Shown in pieces: positions 5,039 to 22,114 of a stretch of DNA of 22,114 bases; positions within the stretch are counted from its first letter, which is position 1, and each line of letters begins with the position of its first letter. A program made the translations under genes and the position numbers. The DNA lies in the IMG/VR virus record IMGVR_UViG_3300044712_002045, positions 1-22,114 of that record; one strand, written 5' to 3'. Under the pieces are notes generated by a model. It was not told the origin of the DNA, searched no databases, and worked only from the letters and a program-made list of their open reading frames with translations. This DNA comes from a virus.

Positions 5039-5218
5039 CTACTCGAACTGCACGCCTTCGTTGATGACGAACTCGAGCAGCTCGCCGTCGCCGTTCGCCG
5101 CCTTCTCGGCCTCGGCCAAGATCCGCAGGTACTCGGCCTTCGTCCACTTGCGAGCGTCGATGAGCGCCTGCATCTCGTCGGCGAGCTCGCGGAGGCGCGC
5201 CCAATCGGGTTCCTTCAC
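5039..5218 (-). CDS. Small acidic helical protein (59 aa)
   Basis: A 59-residue reading frame starts with GTG at 5216-5218, overlapping the stop of the MuF-like gene by four bases (GTGA), and ends with TAG at 5039-5041. The product starts VKEPDWARLRELADEMQALI and continues through WTKAEYLRILAEAEKA to ELLEFVINEGVQFE. It is mostly helical and acidic. GAGGGG lies seven bases upstream of the GTG. Small proteins of unknown function often lie between the MuF-type gene and the protease in Mu-like phages. The coupled start, ribosome-binding sequence and protein-like composition make it likely to be real. Confidence 0.7.
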   Translation of the reverse strand: MKEPDWARLRELADEMQALIDARKWTKAEYLRILAEAEKAANGDGELLEFVINEGVQFE

Positions 5219-6471
5219 GGCGTCACCCCTCGAGCTGTGAGTACGTCCTCGACCATCTTGAAGCCGACCGGATCGAACTGCCGAAGCGCGTTCCGGTCAA
5301 CGAAGTACGCCGCGAAGCTCTCCGCGAGGTACTCCTTGTAGTTCGTCCCCGCGTACTTCGTGATGGGTGTCTTCGTGGTCCGAAACGCCTTCAGGACGAG
5401 CGCATCGATGGCGCCGTCCTTGCCGGTGTGGTGGATGTGGTGGCCGATCTCGTGGATGAGCGTCCGTCGGCGTGCTTCCTCTTGCGTCAGCGCCGTCGAC
5501 GAGATCGTTCGACTCACGCCGGGCATCAGCGGCTTGCCGAAGGTGAACGACTGACGCACCATCGCGACCCTGATCTGGCCGCTCCGCGTGTCGTACCAGC
5601 CAGCTGCGCCGCGCCCTGCGCTGCGCGACAGCGAGAGCTTCTCGACCGGGTGCTTCTCGAGGAGGTCGAGCAGCGTCGAGTCGGTGACGCCGGCGAAGAG
5701 CTCGCGCACCTGCTTCGCCGCGACGCCCTTCGTCTCGACCGCCTTCACGTGCACGCTGTCGGTGAACTTCGGCGCGGGAGGTGGAGGCGGAGCGAGCTTC
5801 TGCTTCGCGTCGAAGACGAACGAGAGCTGCTTCGGGTAGTCCTTGGTGTCGGGCTCCCACTCGTCATCGCTCGGCGTGACGCCGAAGCCGCCGTCAGGCT
5901 CCTGGTCGGGCGGCGAGGTCGTGACCTTGCCGGCCTGAGCCACCGTCAGCGCGATGAACGAGCTGCGGCAGTTGTGGTGCAGCGGCGGCGTGTGCGTCTG
6001 CCACCAGGCGTCGTTCGCCGGGCGCTTCGTGCCGTCGCAGGCCTTGCAGATGCTCGAGGTGCGACCGTCGAGGATCGCGTCGAACATCCACACCGGCCGA
6101 TCGCCGAGGACGTCGGGGTGCGTGGCCTGCTTGAAGCGGCCCGCGCCGTACGCCATCTGGACGTTGGTGCGGAAGATCGTCTCAAGCCGCCACGGCGGAT
6201 CGGCGACCTTGCTGCCCCAGGCCTTCTTCAGGTCATCGCCGATCGACTTCTTGAAGTCGTCGAGCGACGTGCCCTTCTTGACCGCGTCGTCGATCGCCTT
6301 CCACGCGTGGTGGACCAGGTCGAGCTGAGCGAGGTTCGCGACGGTGAACGCCTTGCGCTTCGCCGCCGCCGACATGCGCCGGTAGTCCGACTTCGACACC
6401 GCGACGCGCTTTTTGAACCACGCGATCGCCTCGTCGAAGTCGACCGGGTCCGCGCTGACGGACCAGGTCAC
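5215..6471 (-). CDS. MuF-like head morphogenesis protein fused to an HExxH metallopeptidase
   Basis: This 418-residue protein starts with GTG at 6469-6471. Residues about 60-175 are the Mu gpF/SPP1 gp7 type minor head domain: IFRTNVQMAYGAGRF, ILDGRTSSICKACDGT and PPLHHNCRSSF, with the usual metal-site pattern C142, C145, H165/H166, C168. Residues 176-235 are a polar linker ending in a proline run (LAPPPPPAPKF). Residues about 238-418 are a separate domain with TLIHEIGHHIHH (His340, Glu341, His344) and, 40 residues later, YLAESFAAYF, whose Glu384 is a likely third zinc ligand. This is a gluzincin-like metallopeptidase layout. MuF proteins with C-terminal toxin or enzyme domains are a known class, and some are thought to be delivered into the host with the DNA. 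Whether this enzyme acts on virion or host proteins is unknown. Confidence 0.87.
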   Translation of the reverse strand: MTWSVSADPVDFDEAIAWFKKRVAVSKSDYRRMSAAAKRKAFTVANLAQLDLVHHAWKAIDDAVKKGTSLDDFKKSIGDDLKKAWGSKVADPPWRLETIFRTNVQMAYGAGRFKQATHPDVLGDRPVWMFDAILDGRTSSICKACDGTKRPANDAWWQTHTPPLHHNCRSSFIALTVAQAGKVTTSPPDQEPDGGFGVTPSDDEWEPDTKDYPKQLSFVFDAKQKLAPPPPPAPKFTDSVHVKAVETKGVAAKQVRELFAGVTDSTLLDLLEKHPVEKLSLSRSAGRGAAGWYDTRSGQIRVAMVRQSFTFGKPLMPGVSRTISSTALTQEEARRRTLIHEIGHHIHHTGKDGAIDALVLKAFRTTKTPITKYAGTNYKEYLAESFAAYFVDRNALRQFDPVGFKMVEDVLTARGVTP

Positions 6472-10734: not shown

Positions 10735-11006
10735 GCCGGGCAGCTCCCGGGGCCATCGACGTCGCCCGCGCAGAGGTGCGGTCCCGAGTGGCCTTCCTCG
10801 AGGTCGCACGACCCGCCGCACTCGAGCGGACCGAAGTGGCAGCGGTACCGCGCACGGATCGCGCCGAACGCCGCGACCATGTCGTCGACGAGCTTCCGGT
10901 TCGCGGCCATGTAGAAGCCTCGGATCGCCCAGCCCATGCGCACGAGCGCCTTCGCGAGCGCGATGTTCTCCTGCGTCGGCGTGATGTTCTCCCGCACTTC
11001 GGTCAC
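10731..11006 (-). CDS. Small protein with a C-terminal GHxGPHxC metal-site motif
   Basis: This 91-residue protein has a GTG start at 11004-11006 that overlaps the upstream stop by four bases (GTGA). A longer frame upstream is Arg-rich read-through. The N-terminal 55 residues are helical (TQENIALAKALVRMGWAIRG). The C-terminus has Cys56, Cys63 and Cys67 followed by DLEEGHSGPHLC and a final Cys88. The C-x(n)-G-H-x-G-P-H-x-C signature recurs in small uncharacterised proteins of high-GC bacteria and their phages and probably binds zinc. Both ends are coupled to neighbours. Function unknown. Confidence 0.7.
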   Translation of the reverse strand: MTEVRENITPTQENIALAKALVRMGWAIRGFYMAANRKLVDDMVAAFGAIRARYRCHFGPLECGGSCDLEEGHSGPHLCAGDVDGPGSCPA

Positions 11007-11719
11007 GACGCCCTCCGCAGCTTCGCCTCGAACCGCTCGGCGGCGCGGCGGCGCTTCTTGCCCAGGAGCTCGTCGAGCAGCGCGGCACGCTCGGCGGCGC
11101 GACGCGCCTTGTCGGCGCGACGGCCGGCGGCGTACAGGTCGCGCGTGCGGACGTAGAGCGCGACGGCCTCGACGACGACGGCGGTTGCGCGCTCCTCGAG
11201 GTCGACCTCGCCGGCCTCGACGGCGGCGCGTGCCGCGTGGGCGATCTCGTAGGTGTGCGGACGGCGCGTGCGCTTCGCGGCCTCGAGGACGTGCATGGCG
11301 AGCAGGATGCCGGTCTCGCCCCAGCGCAGGCGCATGTCGTACTCGTCCTGCATGGCCTGCTCGACGAGGAGGCGCTCGGCGACGACGCGCCCGACGCGGA
11401 GCGCCTCGGGGAGGCCCGCGGCGACGCTCGGGTAGCCCGTGCGGCCCGCCTTGTCGTCGAAGACGGCGGAGCAGAGCACGGCGACGGTCTGCGGCGCGAG
11501 ATCGGCGATCACGCGCCCGACGCGTGCGACGTCGCTCGGGACGGCCGCACCACGACCGAGCACGAGGCGCGCGAGGCGCGTGTCGGTGTGCGGGTCGTAG
11601 CCGGAGCCCTTGGGCTCGTACGACTGGGCCACGATGTCGATGCCAGCGGCAGCGGGACCACGTGCGGCCGTGAAGTAGGTCTCGAGCTCCTCGCGCAGCG
11701 CGGGGGTGAGCACTCCCAT
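11003..11719 (-). CDS. Unknown helical protein, first gene of the middle operon
   Basis: This 238-residue protein is read from the ATG at 11717-11719 (MGVLTPALREELETYFTAAR), chosen for its very strong ribosome-binding sequence. A longer upstream frame would run through the repeat region and is Arg-rich. The first half holds a pattern SYEPKGSGYDPHTDTRLARLVLGRG. The middle and C-terminal half are long Ala/Arg/Glu-rich helices (LLVEQAMQDEYDMRLRWGE, then ALYVRTRDLYAAGRRADKA) ending in a basic, coiled-coil-like tail. I do not recognise a family. Position after the origin-like region and before an HTH gene suggests a regulatory or replication-linked role, which is inference. Confidence 0.7.
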   Translation of the reverse strand: MGVLTPALREELETYFTAARGPAAAGIDIVAQSYEPKGSGYDPHTDTRLARLVLGRGAAVPSDVARVGRVIADLAPQTVAVLCSAVFDDKAGRTGYPSVAAGLPEALRVGRVVAERLLVEQAMQDEYDMRLRWGETGILLAMHVLEAAKRTRRPHTYEIAHAARAAVEAGEVDLEERATAVVVEAVALYVRTRDLYAAGRRADKARRAAERAALLDELLGKKRRRAAERFEAKLRRAS

Positions 11720-11724
11720 CGTCT

Positions 11725-11730
11725 CCTCCT
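11725..11730 (-). promoter_or_regulatory. Strong Shine-Dalgarno before the middle operon
   Basis: The minus strand reads GAGGAGGAGACG and then ATG (11719). AGGAGG is a near-perfect match to the anti-Shine-Dalgarno and decides the start of the 238-residue gene. Most other genes nearby rely on coupled overlaps, so this marks the start of a new translation unit. Confidence 0.7.
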
Positions 11731-11799
11731 CGGTGCGCCGGTGGGGGCGACACCTGCGTCTACGATGGATCGTCCAGACGGACGGCGCGCAGTTTCTTC

Positions 11800-11830
11800 C
11801 ACGTGACTGGCGGAATCCGCCAGTCACGTG
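11800..11830. repeat. 31-bp near-perfect palindrome
   Basis: Left arm CACGTGACTGGCGGA (11800-11814), one central A (11815), right arm TCCGCCAGTCACGTG (11816-11830). All 15 positions pair. It contains the repeated half-site ACTGGCGGA in both orientations. Confidence 0.95.
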
Positions 11831-11880
11831 AGCGAGCGTCACCGCAGGGGTGGCGGAATCTCACTGGCGGAATCGAGAGG

Positions 11881-11936
11881 GTGTTCCCGAAACCCCTTAC
11901 TAAGATCCATTCTCTTATAAGGGGTTTCGGGAACAC
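11881..11936. repeat. 24-bp hairpin with AT-rich centre
   Basis: GTGTTCCCGAAACCCCTTA (11881-11899) is exactly inverted at 11918-11936. Inside it TAAGA (11901-11905) pairs with TCTTA (11913-11917), leaving one bulged C (11900) and a seven-base loop. There is no U-tract on either side, so it is unlikely to be a simple intrinsic terminator. Confidence 0.95.
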
Positions 11937-11966
11937 TCACTGGCGGATTCGGTGCGTTTCAGCCAC

Positions 11967-14918
11967 CTACTCGGCGTGACTGGCGGAATCCGCCAGTGAG
12001 CGCAAACGCGACGCGACGGCCGGCGGGACTCCACGACCGGCGAGGTACCGGTGCACGGTCGAGGGCGCACACCCGAGCTCACGAGCGGCCGCTCGGGCGC
12101 CTCCCAGGCGCGTCAGCAGCTCCGCGAGCTCGCCCTGAGGCATCGGTGACCCCGCGGGCGGTCGGCCGCCAGGGAGGCTCTGGAAGCGAACAGCGGGGCG
12201 AGGGTCGAGTGAGGTGCCGGTGACCGGGTCGACGGCTCGCGGGAGCCACCCCGACCCACCTGGGACAACGCGGCCGACGTGGAGGGCGAAGCCGGGGGCC
12301 CGGCGGTGGACCGTGCGGAGGCGACCGTGCGCCTGCTCGAGCTCGGCCTGGGTGGCAGCGACGAGGCGAGCATCGGCGGCGACGTCGAGGTAGTCGGCCT
12401 CGGTCTGCACGATGCCGACGTTCGGCCACGGGTCGCCGACGGTCGCGAGGCAGTCGACGCCGGCGAGGCGGTTCAGGCCGCGCGTGGCGCCGTAGTGGGC
12501 GAGGAGCACCGACGAGATCGGAGCGTCGGCGAGGATGTCGCGGATCGCGGCGATCGCGCGCTCGAACGTCGAGGCGCTCTGGCGCGCGCGAACCCAGTCG
12601 GCGACGACGTCCTCACCGAGGGCGGCGCGGATGGCGATCTCGACGGTGCGGACGGTGATGATGCCGAGCGCGACGGGGCGCTGCATTTGATCGGCACATT
12701 CCTTCACCCACGCGACGACGCCGCGGAGCGCGGCGAGGAGCCCGGTGTCGAGGACGAGCTTGCCGTGGGAGAACCACGAGCGGCGTGTGGCGGAGCCGCA
12801 GCGGAGCATGGTGCGCTCGATGCGGGCGCCGTCGGCGGCGACGAAGCGGTGCAGCGGCGGGTCGTAGTCGACGACCTTCGCGAAGCCGGGGAGGTGCAGG
12901 TCGGCGTTCGCGTCCATCGCGACGACCGCGCCCTGGCGGCGGAGGGCGGCGGCGAGATCGTCTCGCGGCGCGGTGACGACGATGCGGTGCGGGTCCTCCT
13001 CGAGGCGGACGGACGCGTCGGTCGAGACCATGGCGGCGTAGAGGGCGCGAAGCGTGCGCGAGGTGGCGCCGACGGTGCGGGCGACGACGACGTCGGCGCG
13101 GCACGCGCGCGCGGCGTCGTGGCGGAGCGGAGGGCGGGGAAGGGGCTTGTCGTCGGGGCCGGTGGGCGGCCGGTCGAGCGTGTCCGTGAGGTCGGCGAAC
13201 GAGACGTCGGGATCGTCCCAGTCCTTCAGGGCCAGAAGCACAGGGCGCATCGCGTCGGCGTAGACGCGCTCGAACGAGTCGACGTTCGCGATCGCCAGCC
13301 GGACGTCGTCGAGCGTCAGCACCATCGTCTCGAGCAGCGGCGGCGGCTCGTCGATGACGAGGAGGCCGGTCGTGCCGGCGGACGCGTCGAGCTCGCCGAG
13401 GAGCGCGTGCGTGCCGACGGTGACGCGCGGGCGAGTGTCGATGGATGCGATGTGCGGCGGCAGATGCAGCCGCTCTCCGTCCTTCGCCGGGCACTCATCG
13501 TAGTACTCGCACCGGTGCTTGCCGCGGCCGAGGCAGAACTCCCACGTGATGCTCTGTCCGCCCTCGACGAGGGGGAGGGCCTTGTGGGCGAACTTGCAGA
13601 TCGGCTCGCCGCGGTCGTCGACGACGGAGAGCGGGCCGAACACGCGCCGGACGGGCACGCCATGGGCGGCGAGGTCCTCGGCGACCTGGATCGCGAGCTC
13701 GTTCTTGTCGACGGAGATCGACGTCTTGGTCTGCGCCGGGCTTCGGCGGGCGTCCGGACGAACGCGCGCTCGTCTGGCAGCGACGCGCTGGGCGGCGTTC
13801 GTCTTGCCGAGGCCGCACTCGGCGACGACGACGGTGAGGCCATCGGGGGCGTTCGCGATCGTGCGCTCGAGCGCGTCGGTGGTGGCGGCGAGCGTCTCGG
13901 CCGGCGTGGGCGGCGGCGCAGGAGCTGCGACGAGGCGGGCGCCGTCGTCGATCGCATCCTGCACGGCGTCGGCGACGGAGGGCCATCGCGTGACGAGATC
14001 GCGCATGCCCGAGACGGCGATGCCGTTGAGGTAGCGGCCGACGGTGTCGCGCGCCGAGCGTTCGTGGTGGGCGGGGTCGCGGGAGGCAGCCGCGATCGCG
14101 ACGAGGCGCACGAGCTCGGGGACGTACTCGGGTGGCACGCGCCGCTGCAGGATCGCGCCGGCGAGGGCGAGGAAGAGGTCGTGCCACGTGCCGGGCTGGA
14201 CGGTGTCGCGGACGACGCCGCCGATCGTCGCCGCGCGCGCCTGCCAGTGCTCGGCGAGCGTCGGCGTGAACGGGATCGGCGGCAGGGGCTCGCGCTTCGC
14301 ACGTGGCGATCGCGCGCGCGCCGGCATCGAGAGCGGTTCGAGGTCGACGGGGCGCATCCGCGACAGGTCGACGTAGGGCGAGCGGAACGGCTGGCCGCCG
14401 CGGAGGACGTTCGGCATGCGCATGTGCCGGGTCCAGTCCTTCGCCGACCAGTCGACGCGGAGGCCCGCGGCGTCGAGCTCGGCGAGGGCGCGCCGGATGA
14501 GCGGCTCGGCGTCGGCGACGGGGACCGGCGCGGCGAGGGGCAGGACGAAGCGTGCCCCCTTGGTCGTGTGGTAGACGCCGAACGGCAGCGGCGCGTTCGC
14601 GTAGCGCTCGAGCGCGGCGTCGAGCAGCTCGGGCGTCCACGGCGCGTGGCCGGGGTTGTCGGCGTCGACGAGGATCGTGGTGAAGAGCGTCTCGGCGAGG
14701 ACGTCGGCGGGCGCTTGCTTGGTGAGGCGCGGCTGGCGGTTATGCTGAACGAGCGGATGACCGTCGGGCAGGATGTAACAGACCGCGTGAGCGTCGGTCA
14801 GATACACGTGTTCGAGCGCCGTCACGAGGTCTAGGCGCTCGTAGGCGATCTGCGCACGCGGCTTCGGGTAGCCGCGCGCGAACTTGTCCTTCGCAACAGC
14901 GATACGCGGCCACGGCAT
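11967..14918 (-). CDS. Primase-helicase with Fe-S-type Cys cluster and C-terminal HTH
   Basis: This 983-residue protein is the likely replication initiator. Residues about 40-200 look like an archaeo-eukaryotic (PrimPol-type) primase: TTILVDADNPG gives the D-x-D pair (Asp85, Asp87), GVYHTTKGARFVLPL the second motif, and WTRHMRMPNVLRGG the basic motif. Residues 360-375 (VVVAECGLGKTNAAQ) are a Walker A, and GLLVIDEPPPLLE (Asp523, Glu524) a Walker B. Between them lie four cysteines, Cys441, Cys462, Cys470 and Cys476, the place where XPD/DinG helicases carry a 4Fe-4S cluster. Late helicase-like segments include AVVAMDANADLHLPGF and LLAHYGATRGLNRLAG. The end holds an HTH (GGARAAARELGCAPSTVHRYL). 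The last codons overlap the repeat complex, so self-recognition of the origin through the HTH is a natural hypothesis. The ATG lies three bases past the upstream stop. Confidence 0.82.
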   Translation of the reverse strand: MPWPRIAVAKDKFARGYPKPRAQIAYERLDLVTALEHVYLTDAHAVCYILPDGHPLVQHNRQPRLTKQAPADVLAETLFTTILVDADNPGHAPWTPELLDAALERYANAPLPFGVYHTTKGARFVLPLAAPVPVADAEPLIRRALAELDAAGLRVDWSAKDWTRHMRMPNVLRGGQPFRSPYVDLSRMRPVDLEPLSMPARARSPRAKREPLPPIPFTPTLAEHWQARAATIGGVVRDTVQPGTWHDLFLALAGAILQRRVPPEYVPELVRLVAIAAASRDPAHHERSARDTVGRYLNGIAVSGMRDLVTRWPSVADAVQDAIDDGARLVAAPAPPPTPAETLAATTDALERTIANAPDGLTVVVAECGLGKTNAAQRVAARRARVRPDARRSPAQTKTSISVDKNELAIQVAEDLAAHGVPVRRVFGPLSVVDDRGEPICKFAHKALPLVEGGQSITWEFCLGRGKHRCEYYDECPAKDGERLHLPPHIASIDTRPRVTVGTHALLGELDASAGTTGLLVIDEPPPLLETMVLTLDDVRLAIANVDSFERVYADAMRPVLLALKDWDDPDVSFADLTDTLDRPPTGPDDKPLPRPPLRHDAARACRADVVVARTVGATSRTLRALYAAMVSTDASVRLEEDPHRIVVTAPRDDLAAALRRQGAVVAMDANADLHLPGFAKVVDYDPPLHRFVAADGARIERTMLRCGSATRRSWFSHGKLVLDTGLLAALRGVVAWVKECADQMQRPVALGIITVRTVEIAIRAALGEDVVADWVRARQSASTFERAIAAIRDILADAPISSVLLAHYGATRGLNRLAGVDCLATVGDPWPNVGIVQTEADYLDVAADARLVAATQAELEQAHGRLRTVHRRAPGFALHVGRVVPGGSGWLPRAVDPVTGTSLDPRPAVRFQSLPGGRPPAGSPMPQGELAELLTRLGGARAAARELGCAPSTVHRYLAGRGVPPAVASRLRSLADSASHAE
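11979..11997. repeat. 19-bp palindrome inside the end of the primase gene
   Basis: ACTGGCGGA (11979-11987), central A (11988), TCCGCCAGT (11989-11997). It is the core of the 31-bp palindrome at the other edge of the region. It overlaps the coding sequence of the primase C-terminus, where it encodes residues SLADSAS. Confidence 0.95.
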
Positions 14919-20533: not shown

Positions 20534-20625
20534 TGCAGGCCCCGCACATGCGCGCAGGGCCAGCCTCCGGTCTGCTCGGCGATGAGCGGCAGCTCGCGCG
20601 CCGTAGTGTCGTTCGCGGGCGCCAT
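20530..20625 (-). CDS. Possible 31-residue protein coupled on both sides
   Basis: An ATG at 20623-20625 shares one base with the stop of the ParB-like gene (TGATG). The frame encodes MAPANDTTARELPLIAEQTG and then GWPCAHVRGLQ before TGA at 20530-20532, where it overlaps the next gene's GTG by four bases. Without it the zinc-finger gene would follow an untranslated gap of 91 bases, unlike the other junctions in this operon. AGGAG lies about 11 bases upstream, which is long. It may be a real micropeptide or only a translational relay. Confidence 0.45.
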   Translation of the reverse strand: MAPANDTTARELPLIAEQTGGWPCAHVRGLQ

Positions 20626-21377
20626 CACGCCGCCGTCTCCTGGGCGATGCGCGCGAGCTTGGGGAGCTGTTCGCGAACGATGACAGCGACGAGCTCGGCT
20701 CCCTTGCGCGACGACCGTGCCACTTCGGTCAGCTGATCGATGCCTCGCTCGAACGTGTCCTGCGCGCGCGCAAGGCTGCTCACGAACGCGTCTTGCTCGC
20801 TCGGCGGCGCTGGCGTGGATGGGACGACTGACGCCGGCGAGGCGACCGGTCGCGCCGCATTCGCCGCGGCGATGTTCGAGACGTTCATTACGGCCTCGGT
20901 GCCGTGGCGCGTCGTGTAGCGGCGCTGCCCGCTCTCTTCCGGGGCGTCACCAGCGAGCCGTTTGCGCTGGGCCCGAACGGTCTCGTGGTTCACGCCGACG
21001 GTCTCGGCGATCTTGCGATCGCTCCACGTCGACCACTCCTCGTCACGGAGCAGGCGCTCGATGGCGATGCGCTTGTCAGCGCGCGTGAGGTGCACCCCGT
21101 GACGTCGGTTCGCACCCAGGCTGTAGAAGATCGCGTCGCGAAGGACGCCTTGCCGAACGTCGGCTTCCAGCTCCGTCAGGCCCGCGGCAGAGGCCGCCTG
21201 AACCCGGTGGAAACCGTCCGCGAGGATGTAGCTCGTGCCGTCGTAGAACACGATGATCGGCGGGAAGACGTCGCCGCGCATCATCGCGTCGCCGTACTCG
21301 GTGACGGCCTCCTCGTTGAGCTGCGCACGCGCCTGCGTGCCGGCGTTCAGGACGATCTGCGCGATCGCGAGCTTCAT
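20625..21377 (-). CDS. ParB-like domain protein with HTH
   Basis: This 250-residue protein is read from ATG 21375-21377 (MKLAIAQIVLNAGTQARAQL), coupled to the upstream stop. A longer frame upstream is Arg/Pro-rich read-through. Residues 1-90 form a ParB-like N-terminal fold with PPIIVFYDGTSYILADGFHRVQAA (the D-G-F-H-R motif, 54-58) in place of the classic G-E-R-R. Next comes GANRRHGVHLTRADKRIAIERL, then an HTH (WSDRKIAETVGVNHETVRAQRKRL, 118-141). The last 80 residues are a polar linker and a helix. Proteins of this layout occur in phages and mobile elements of high-GC bacteria, usually next to replication genes, and are thought to be DNA-binding regulators. It is a second, distinct ParB-type protein in the same operon. 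Confidence 0.85.
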   Translation of the reverse strand: MKLAIAQIVLNAGTQARAQLNEEAVTEYGDAMMRGDVFPPIIVFYDGTSYILADGFHRVQAASAAGLTELEADVRQGVLRDAIFYSLGANRRHGVHLTRADKRIAIERLLRDEEWSTWSDRKIAETVGVNHETVRAQRKRLAGDAPEESGQRRYTTRHGTEAVMNVSNIAAANAARPVASPASVVPSTPAPPSEQDAFVSSLARAQDTFERGIDQLTEVARSSRKGAELVAVIVREQLPKLARIAQETAA

Positions 21378-21826
21378 GCGGCCACCGCCTGCAGCTCGAT
21401 GAATTCGCGGAGCTCCGGAACAGGCTGGAACCACTCCCCCCGAAGGCGCGCGTAGCGAAACCACCCGTGCAGCCGACGCTCGGTCGGAACACCACCGCGG
21501 ACCGTTCCGAGAAGCCGAAGTCGCTCTGCGTTTCCAGTTTGAAGCTCGCGGAGCCGCTCGTTGACGTGACCTGTCGTCGTGCCGATCTTCACTGGGCCGC
21601 CGAGACCGGCCTCGACGAAGTAGACGCGGCCCGTGGTCGAGTCCTCGTCGCTCAGCGCGAAGAAGCGCGTCGTCAGCAGCGCCTTCTGGAAGTTCGACCA
21701 AGGCAAGCGACTCCGCACGGCGAGGAAGAGGTCGGTTAGCTCGTCCGCGCTGGCGACCGTGCGGAGCGTGCTGCGCTCGCCTTCGGTAAGCGACGGAAGC
21801 AGTTCCTCGAGCAGGCGGGGGTTCAT
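21374..21826 (-). CDS. GIY-YIG (Mug113-like) domain protein
   Basis: This 150-residue protein is read from ATG 21824-21826 (MNPRLLEELLPSLTEGERST) with GAGG six bases upstream. Residues 1-62 are helical with SLTEGERSTLRTVASADELTD. Residues 67-144 are a GIY-YIG-superfamily domain of the same branch as the one at 14922-15515: RVYFVEAG, GPVKIGTTTG, Arg91, LQTGNAERLRLLG, ERRLHGWFRYARLRGEWF (His120, Glu131). The two domains share K-I-G, T/V-G-N, L-L-G and R-G-E-W-F at matching spacing, so they are paralogues. This copy has a helical N-terminus instead of zinc fingers. It is the first gene after the control region. Possible nuclease or DNA-binding protein. Confidence 0.8.
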   Translation of the reverse strand: MNPRLLEELLPSLTEGERSTLRTVASADELTDLFLAVRSRLPWSNFQKALLTTRFFALSDEDSTTGRVYFVEAGLGGPVKIGTTTGHVNERLRELQTGNAERLRLLGTVRGGVPTERRLHGWFRYARLRGEWFQPVPELREFIELQAVAA

Positions 21827-22114
21827 GTGGCCCTCGTGAACTGCGCGGACACGCAGAACGCCGCGACCGCCGGCACCACGCCGCACCCGCGAACAAAAAA
21901 AAGTGCGGCCCGTGAAACACTCGCCGCTGAACGCGAGAGTCGGTGGGAGAAAAATGCGCCGCGATCTCGTTGCGGATTCCGGCGGTGTTCAGCTACCGAC
22001 TCGGCGCCGGGTTCAGCACATGAACCACGGCGCAGAGTGCTCGCGCGAGCACCACTGAACACTGCGTGCACATTGCACCCAAGCTCGACATCGCGAACGT
22101 TCGACACGTGACCT
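21827..22114 (-). promoter_or_regulatory. Early control region with clustered dyads
   Basis: No convincing gene lies here. The stretch holds: GGTTCA-n5-TGAACC (22010-22026); GTGTTCAG (21985-21992) inverted at 22055-22062; a further CTGAAC (21927-21932); GTGCTCGC-GCGAGCAC, a 16-bp perfect palindrome (22037-22052); GTGCA-CAT-TGCAC (22066-22078); and CGAACGTTCG (22094-22103). A run of eight T on the minus strand (21895-21902) lies between CCGCAC and GTGCGG arms. The recurring GTTCAG/CTGAAC half-sites look like repressor operators upstream of the leftward operon. I could not pick a reliable -35/-10 pair. Confidence 0.55.

Follow-up and report, generated by a model that had tools for sequence, protein, structure and literature searches.

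The stretch of DNA analysed here (the window, 22,114 bases, an entire IMG/VR contig of a tailed phage) carries a cluster of repeats and palindromes around an AT-rich hairpin at the end of a primase-helicase gene, which raises the question of whether replication starts at this locus and, if so, which of its parts matter. All main genes of the window lie on the minus strand and include those for a Mu-type portal, a gpF-like protein, a protease, a capsid protein, a terminase, a DEAD/ResIII helicase and two ParB-like proteins; the phage is a myxobacterial phage. Two distinct GIY-YIG-like (MUG113/T5orf172) proteins occur in this single phage fragment (14922-15473 and 21374-21886, minus strand), and the Mu gpF-like head protein (5215-6471, minus strand) bears a C-terminal HEXXH metallopeptidase-like domain.

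The hairpin, the repeats and the adjacent gene

The gene next to the cluster (11967-14918, minus strand) encodes a replication protein of 983 amino acids, the presumed initiator. Its downstream neighbour (11003-11719, minus strand) encodes 238 amino acids from the ATG at 11719, most likely its start, and has a strong ribosome-binding site and no Pfam match; the 247-bp intergenic gap between the two (11720-11966) holds most of the element. For the N-terminal domain of the 983-aa protein, in which D85 and D87 are invariant, the top ten fold matches of a structural model (pLDDT 89) are all AEP polymerases or primases (LigD-Pol and S-2L PrimPol among them), weak matches with E values of 1.3e-3 and up and a TM score of ~0.35, with RepB' coming next (E ~0.2). 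A match to Prim-Pol PF09250 (1e-39) was obtained with the distant homolog L064 only. The full-length model (pLDDT 84) best matches DinG and XPD, SF2 Fe-S helicases (E 1e-11), and the cysteine cluster between the Walker motifs is conserved; the helicase fold is thus SF2 XPD/DinG rather than the SF3 domain of the pRN1-type protein. A C-terminal HTH of DNA-binding type, which looks closer to XRE/YdaS than to the winged helix of the pRN1-type protein, is present in most homologs. The name ‘primase-helicase with HTH’, used in the preliminary description, is a fair one, its primase part being the least certain given the weak fold matches.

The putative origin core is a 56-bp DNA stem-loop (11881-11936) that lies 31 nt beyond the stop codon of this gene. 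Perfect 19-bp arms (11881-11899 and 11918-11936), which with their flanks become 24-nt arms of 92% complementarity (11876-11899 and 11918-11941), enclose an 18-nt loop (CTAAGATCCATTCTCTTA on the plus strand, 11900-11917) that is a candidate unwinding or priming region. The loop is indeed AT-rich, as had been reported from a first look, and marks the AT-richest 20-, 30-, 40- and 60-bp stretch of the 22-kb window. Folded as single-stranded DNA, the hairpin reaches a z score of -8 to -9 against shuffles; an Rfam search gave no match.

Two exact palindromes flank the hairpin, one of 31 bp (CACGTGACTGGCGGAATCCGCCAGTCACGTG, 11800-11830, 15+1+15), a phage-specific accessory site, and one of 19 bp (ACTGGCGGAATCCGCCAGT, 11979-11997, 9+1+9), which lies within the final codons of the primase-helicase gene; both the bracketing of the hairpin and the embedding of the outermost copy in the gene end are as first described. 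The dense half-site cluster at 11800-11997 is also real, with seven sites in five places recovered by motif search: exact copies of ACTGGCGGAATC at 11806, 11863 (to 11874, plus strand) and 11979; copies of ACTGGCGGATTC, one mismatch away, at 11939 (to 11950, plus strand) and, on the minus strand within the palindromes, at 11813 and 11986; and GGTGGCGGAATC, with two mismatches, at 11849-11860 (plus strand). With up to three mismatches allowed, the window has 17 matches to the motif against 19.9 in shuffles and so shows no excess, but every copy with zero or one mismatch belongs to this cluster. Six copies of one 9-mer per 200 bp are the window maximum, the runner-up, with four, being a CG run.

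Similar palindromes are found elsewhere. The REP-like palindromes CTGGCGGAWTCCGCCAG of other phage contigs have a 17-bp palindrome core in common with those of the window phage but occur as single scattered copies rather than as a dense cluster, and TATCTGGCGGAWTCCGCCAGATA is a scattered palindromic repeat in other phage contigs, apparently with cyanobacterial hosts (L072-L078). A host REP element was rejected as an explanation, with the palindrome found in 0 of 379 Myxococcota genomes. The exact 19-bp palindrome also lies within two ParB-like genes (L004:7713-7731 and L008:697-715), right after the HTH and in differing reading frames, and the proteins concerned are 41-45% identical to the window ParB (20625-21920). 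A link to ParB sites was rejected as a general rule because the palindrome, with two mismatches allowed, was absent from all 80 additional ParB relatives.

What relatives keep and what they lack

About two dozen homologs of the 983-aa protein were found in Myxococcota phages and prophages. There were none in 50,697 phage records or in 72,556 plasmids, and a single-sequence protein search of genome contigs returned nothing; alignment-based searches succeeded, yielding homologs in Myxococcota MAG contigs and in further phage contigs, to which a phylum search added few loci. One candidate, L066, was dropped as not a homolog. Among the 24 homologs whose 3' region was readable, about 20 have the hairpin, ~50-65 bp in length, where the gene ends; no hairpin was detectable in L037 and L064, L048 is a fragment without one and L033 has one arm only. 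The hairpin score lies above, or in the top ~1% of, 376 same-size control windows at 16 of 21 Myxococcota phage or prophage loci, and some other loci carry imperfect or lower-scoring forms. The gene order helicase, primase, hairpin, terminase is maintained among the phages compared, and the arms often share GAAACCCC and the loops a TCTCTTA/AGAGAA motif. A gene-blind scan of IMG/VR DNA for the arms returned 17 loci, and at eight of these a homolog of the 983-aa protein is encoded where the hairpin lies; the gene itself is rare in IMG/VR (7 loci by alignment search).

The repeats fare differently. In the nearest relative, L003, whose protein is 50-52% identical, ACTGGCGGA is missing, yet a hairpin stands at the equivalent gene end with the same arms as in the window (CCGAAACCCCT..AGGGGTTTCGG). 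ACTGGCGGA repeats are absent from every hairpin-bearing relative checked for them, and in other homologs the surroundings of the hairpin are generally not enriched in repeats, the exceptions being L041 (tandem copies) and, weakly, L043, where additional hairpin arms make up the repeats. Iterons for initiator binding that are conserved next to the initiator gene, as in a P4-like iteron origin, were not found, iterons being dense in the window phage only. The idea that palindromic iterons form the core of the element does not survive these comparisons. The preliminary description had counted relatives with the gene but without a repeat cluster against an origin; such relatives lack this repeat cluster but do have the hairpin. 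The ACTGGCGGAATC array is best seen as an accessory, phage-specific addition, consisting of either initiator sites or operators.

In five loci (L003, L010, L040, L042 and L043) the stem lies within the reading frame, which extends 50-300 nt beyond it. Where the frame of the replication gene runs on through the hairpin, a repeated peptide, RGFGPT or GVSGAP, occurs in several of L003, the L010 clade, L040 and L043, and these same phages have additional GGGGTTTCGG arm copies upstream or downstream that give alternative hairpins. The hairpin region is tandemly duplicated at L041:2539-2780. The 82.6-kb contig of L012 (G008) holds two primase-helicase copies separated by ~50 kb, both with a hairpin of their own behind them; one of the two appears to contain an in-frame stop.

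Stem pairing is conserved while stem sequence is variable. An alignment of 18 hairpins, imperfect for L045 and L049, shows two-sided changes at 19 of 19 stem pairs; 86.3% of cells are paired, against 35-52% after sliding partners, and 0 of 500 shuffles matched any measure. G-U combinations occupy 10 of 342 cells, a share that does not exceed expectation for non-Watson-Crick combinations, so that selection looks like DNA rather than RNA pairing, and the constraint on the stem, as read from the alignment, looks like one on Watson-Crick pairing of DNA. Towards their outer ends the arms differ wholly between phages and still remain complementary, which is not what a fixed protein site predicts. 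A covariance model, R1, built from 18 of the loci that it subsequently matched, had matches solely beside a 983-aa-type gene in the 367 kb searched, including L046 and L052, both outside its training set.

The loop itself can be inverted. Within the L010 clade, whose flanks are collinear and 91-93% identical, the loop (20-odd bp) reads ATACTCTTCTTCT in L010, L011 and L020 and its reverse complement in L017, L018 and L024. The last three are mutually 99.7-100% identical, and the flipped clade may for that reason represent a single inversion event. Such inversion would be an expected product of hairpin formation during replication, the action of a recombinase being the alternative.

Origin, terminator, operator, packaging signal or recombination site

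On these grounds the stem-loop at 11881-11936 is probably the replication origin of this Myxococcota phage family, or its essential core, acting in cis with the primase-helicase-HTH protein encoded beside it. The first proposal, an origin with the adjacent gene as initiator, is supported in so far as most relatives keep the hairpin beside that gene, as in pRN1, and fails in its iteron core, the origin function itself being putative. Relatives do not conserve the presumed initiator sites, which counts against an origin and leaves recognition by the HTH unexplained by it. The homologs with no hairpin (L037, L064) or half of one (L033), the absence of an SF3 helicase and the weak AEP fold matches weigh on the same side. 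The GC and AT skew of a 54-kb relative (G007) takes no turn at the hairpin and is uninformative.

A transcription terminator, or an RNA-processing hairpin, between the early (replication) and late (head) operons would fit the position of the hairpin at the early/late boundary, with all genes on the same strand, and some unrelated phage hairpins with identical arm letters do look terminator-like. We nevertheless regard such a role as quite unlikely: a scan found no terminator-like site, a T-rich stretch follows the stem in 1 of 18 members only, and in the five loci named above the stem sits inside a reading frame that continues past it. The near-absence of G-U pairs, the free orientation of the loop and the recurrent AT-rich loop motif speak against it as well. 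An operator array for a repressor or activator of the operon starting at 11719, with an incidental hairpin, is unlikely too, even though the gene that follows these palindromes and direct half-sites, all of a single motif, has a strong ribosome-binding site, and the repeats are phage-specific, like the operators of immunity systems. It leaves unaccounted for a hairpin kept by relatives that lack the motif; moreover, the window has no close motif copy elsewhere, and no sigma70-type promoter was found, which is weak evidence in a high-GC organism. The iterons may well be operators alongside an origin role of the hairpin.

The large terminase gene lies about 1-4 kb downstream in the window, L003, L017 and L042, as might be expected of a packaging (pac/cos) signal, but the hairpin invariably adjoins the primase gene, whereas its distance from the terminase ranges from 0.9 to ~5 kb; it falls within the primase frame in several phages, and neither the window nor the 54-kb relative has its ends there, making a packaging role very improbable. 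The inverted loop of close relatives could instead mean that the arms are recombinase sites, either attP or an invertible switch whose loop a recombinase flips. Two contigs, G001:C38 (272 kb) and G002:C139 (129 kb), far exceed such a phage in size and are most likely integrated prophages; primase, hairpin, terminase and late genes are contiguous in them, and the hairpin is therefore not attP. The arms are fixed in pairing only and not in sequence, the parts examined showed no recognisable recombinase gene, and one inversion event can explain the flipped clade; recombination sites are accordingly a highly doubtful reading. A telomere-resolvase site was rejected, the centre being non-palindromic in most members. 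A hairpin that is paired as DNA, tethered to one gene and free in orientation is better explained by an origin than by any of the terminator, packaging, attachment and operator readings.

A possible initiation mechanism and known replicons

If the stem-loop is an origin, the protein could bind downstream of its own gene through the HTH, in the window phage perhaps at the ACTGGCGGAATC sites. The AT-rich centre would then melt and the arms on the exposed strands could form a hairpin or cruciform, the XPD/DinG-type helicase might enlarge the bubble, and the AEP-like domain, judging from the predicted domains, could make the first primer, to be extended by host or phage polymerases. There is, in our estimate, an even chance that this Myxococcota phage family initiates at a DNA stem-loop with a single protein combining an AEP primase and an XPD/DinG Fe-S helicase, and that the loop inverts since the hairpin truly extrudes in replication. 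In the literature we found, a fusion of this kind with a stem-loop origin is not described. Were it correct, stem-loop origins, first seen in an archaeal plasmid, would also occur in a family of bacteriophages whose helicase is unrelated. That would suggest a recurring association of hairpin origins with primase-helicase fusions, and an under-studied host phylum would gain a small, testable replicon.

The closest parallel is the Sulfolobus plasmid pRN1, in which a stem-loop just 3' of the AEP primase-helicase gene (ORF904) is required for replication, its structure being conserved and its sequence not; a pairing-restoring mutation rescued one mutant (PMC4234260). A similar stem-loop occurs in Bordetella phage BIP-1, for which a stem-loop origin was also proposed (PMC4234260). 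Like pRN1, the window phage has its stem-loop immediately 3' of the replication gene, its family conserves the structure (19 of 19 pairs) without the sequence, and its protein combines an AEP primase domain, suggested by weak fold matches, with a predicted C-terminal DNA-binding domain. By contrast, pRN1 is an archaeal plasmid with an SF3 helicase and an element of ~100 bp, whereas the tailed phages of Myxococcota, which are bacteria, have an SF2 XPD/DinG-like helicase with Fe-S cysteines and an element of ~50-65 bp. They also differ in their shared GAAACCCC arms, their loop motif and the occurrence of both loop orientations, and the window phage in its extra iterons. The alpha protein of phage P4 is likewise a multi-domain primase-helicase whose C-terminal DNA-binding domain acts at repeats, but its primase is of Toprim type and its origin iteron-based (PMC4234260), whereas the iterons described here are not conserved among relatives. 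The RSF1010 oriV (ssiA/ssiB) similarly joins iterons with exposed-strand hairpins that are recognised by the primase RepB'; it uses three separate proteins and two hairpins (PMC4234260), where the window phage has one protein and one hairpin.
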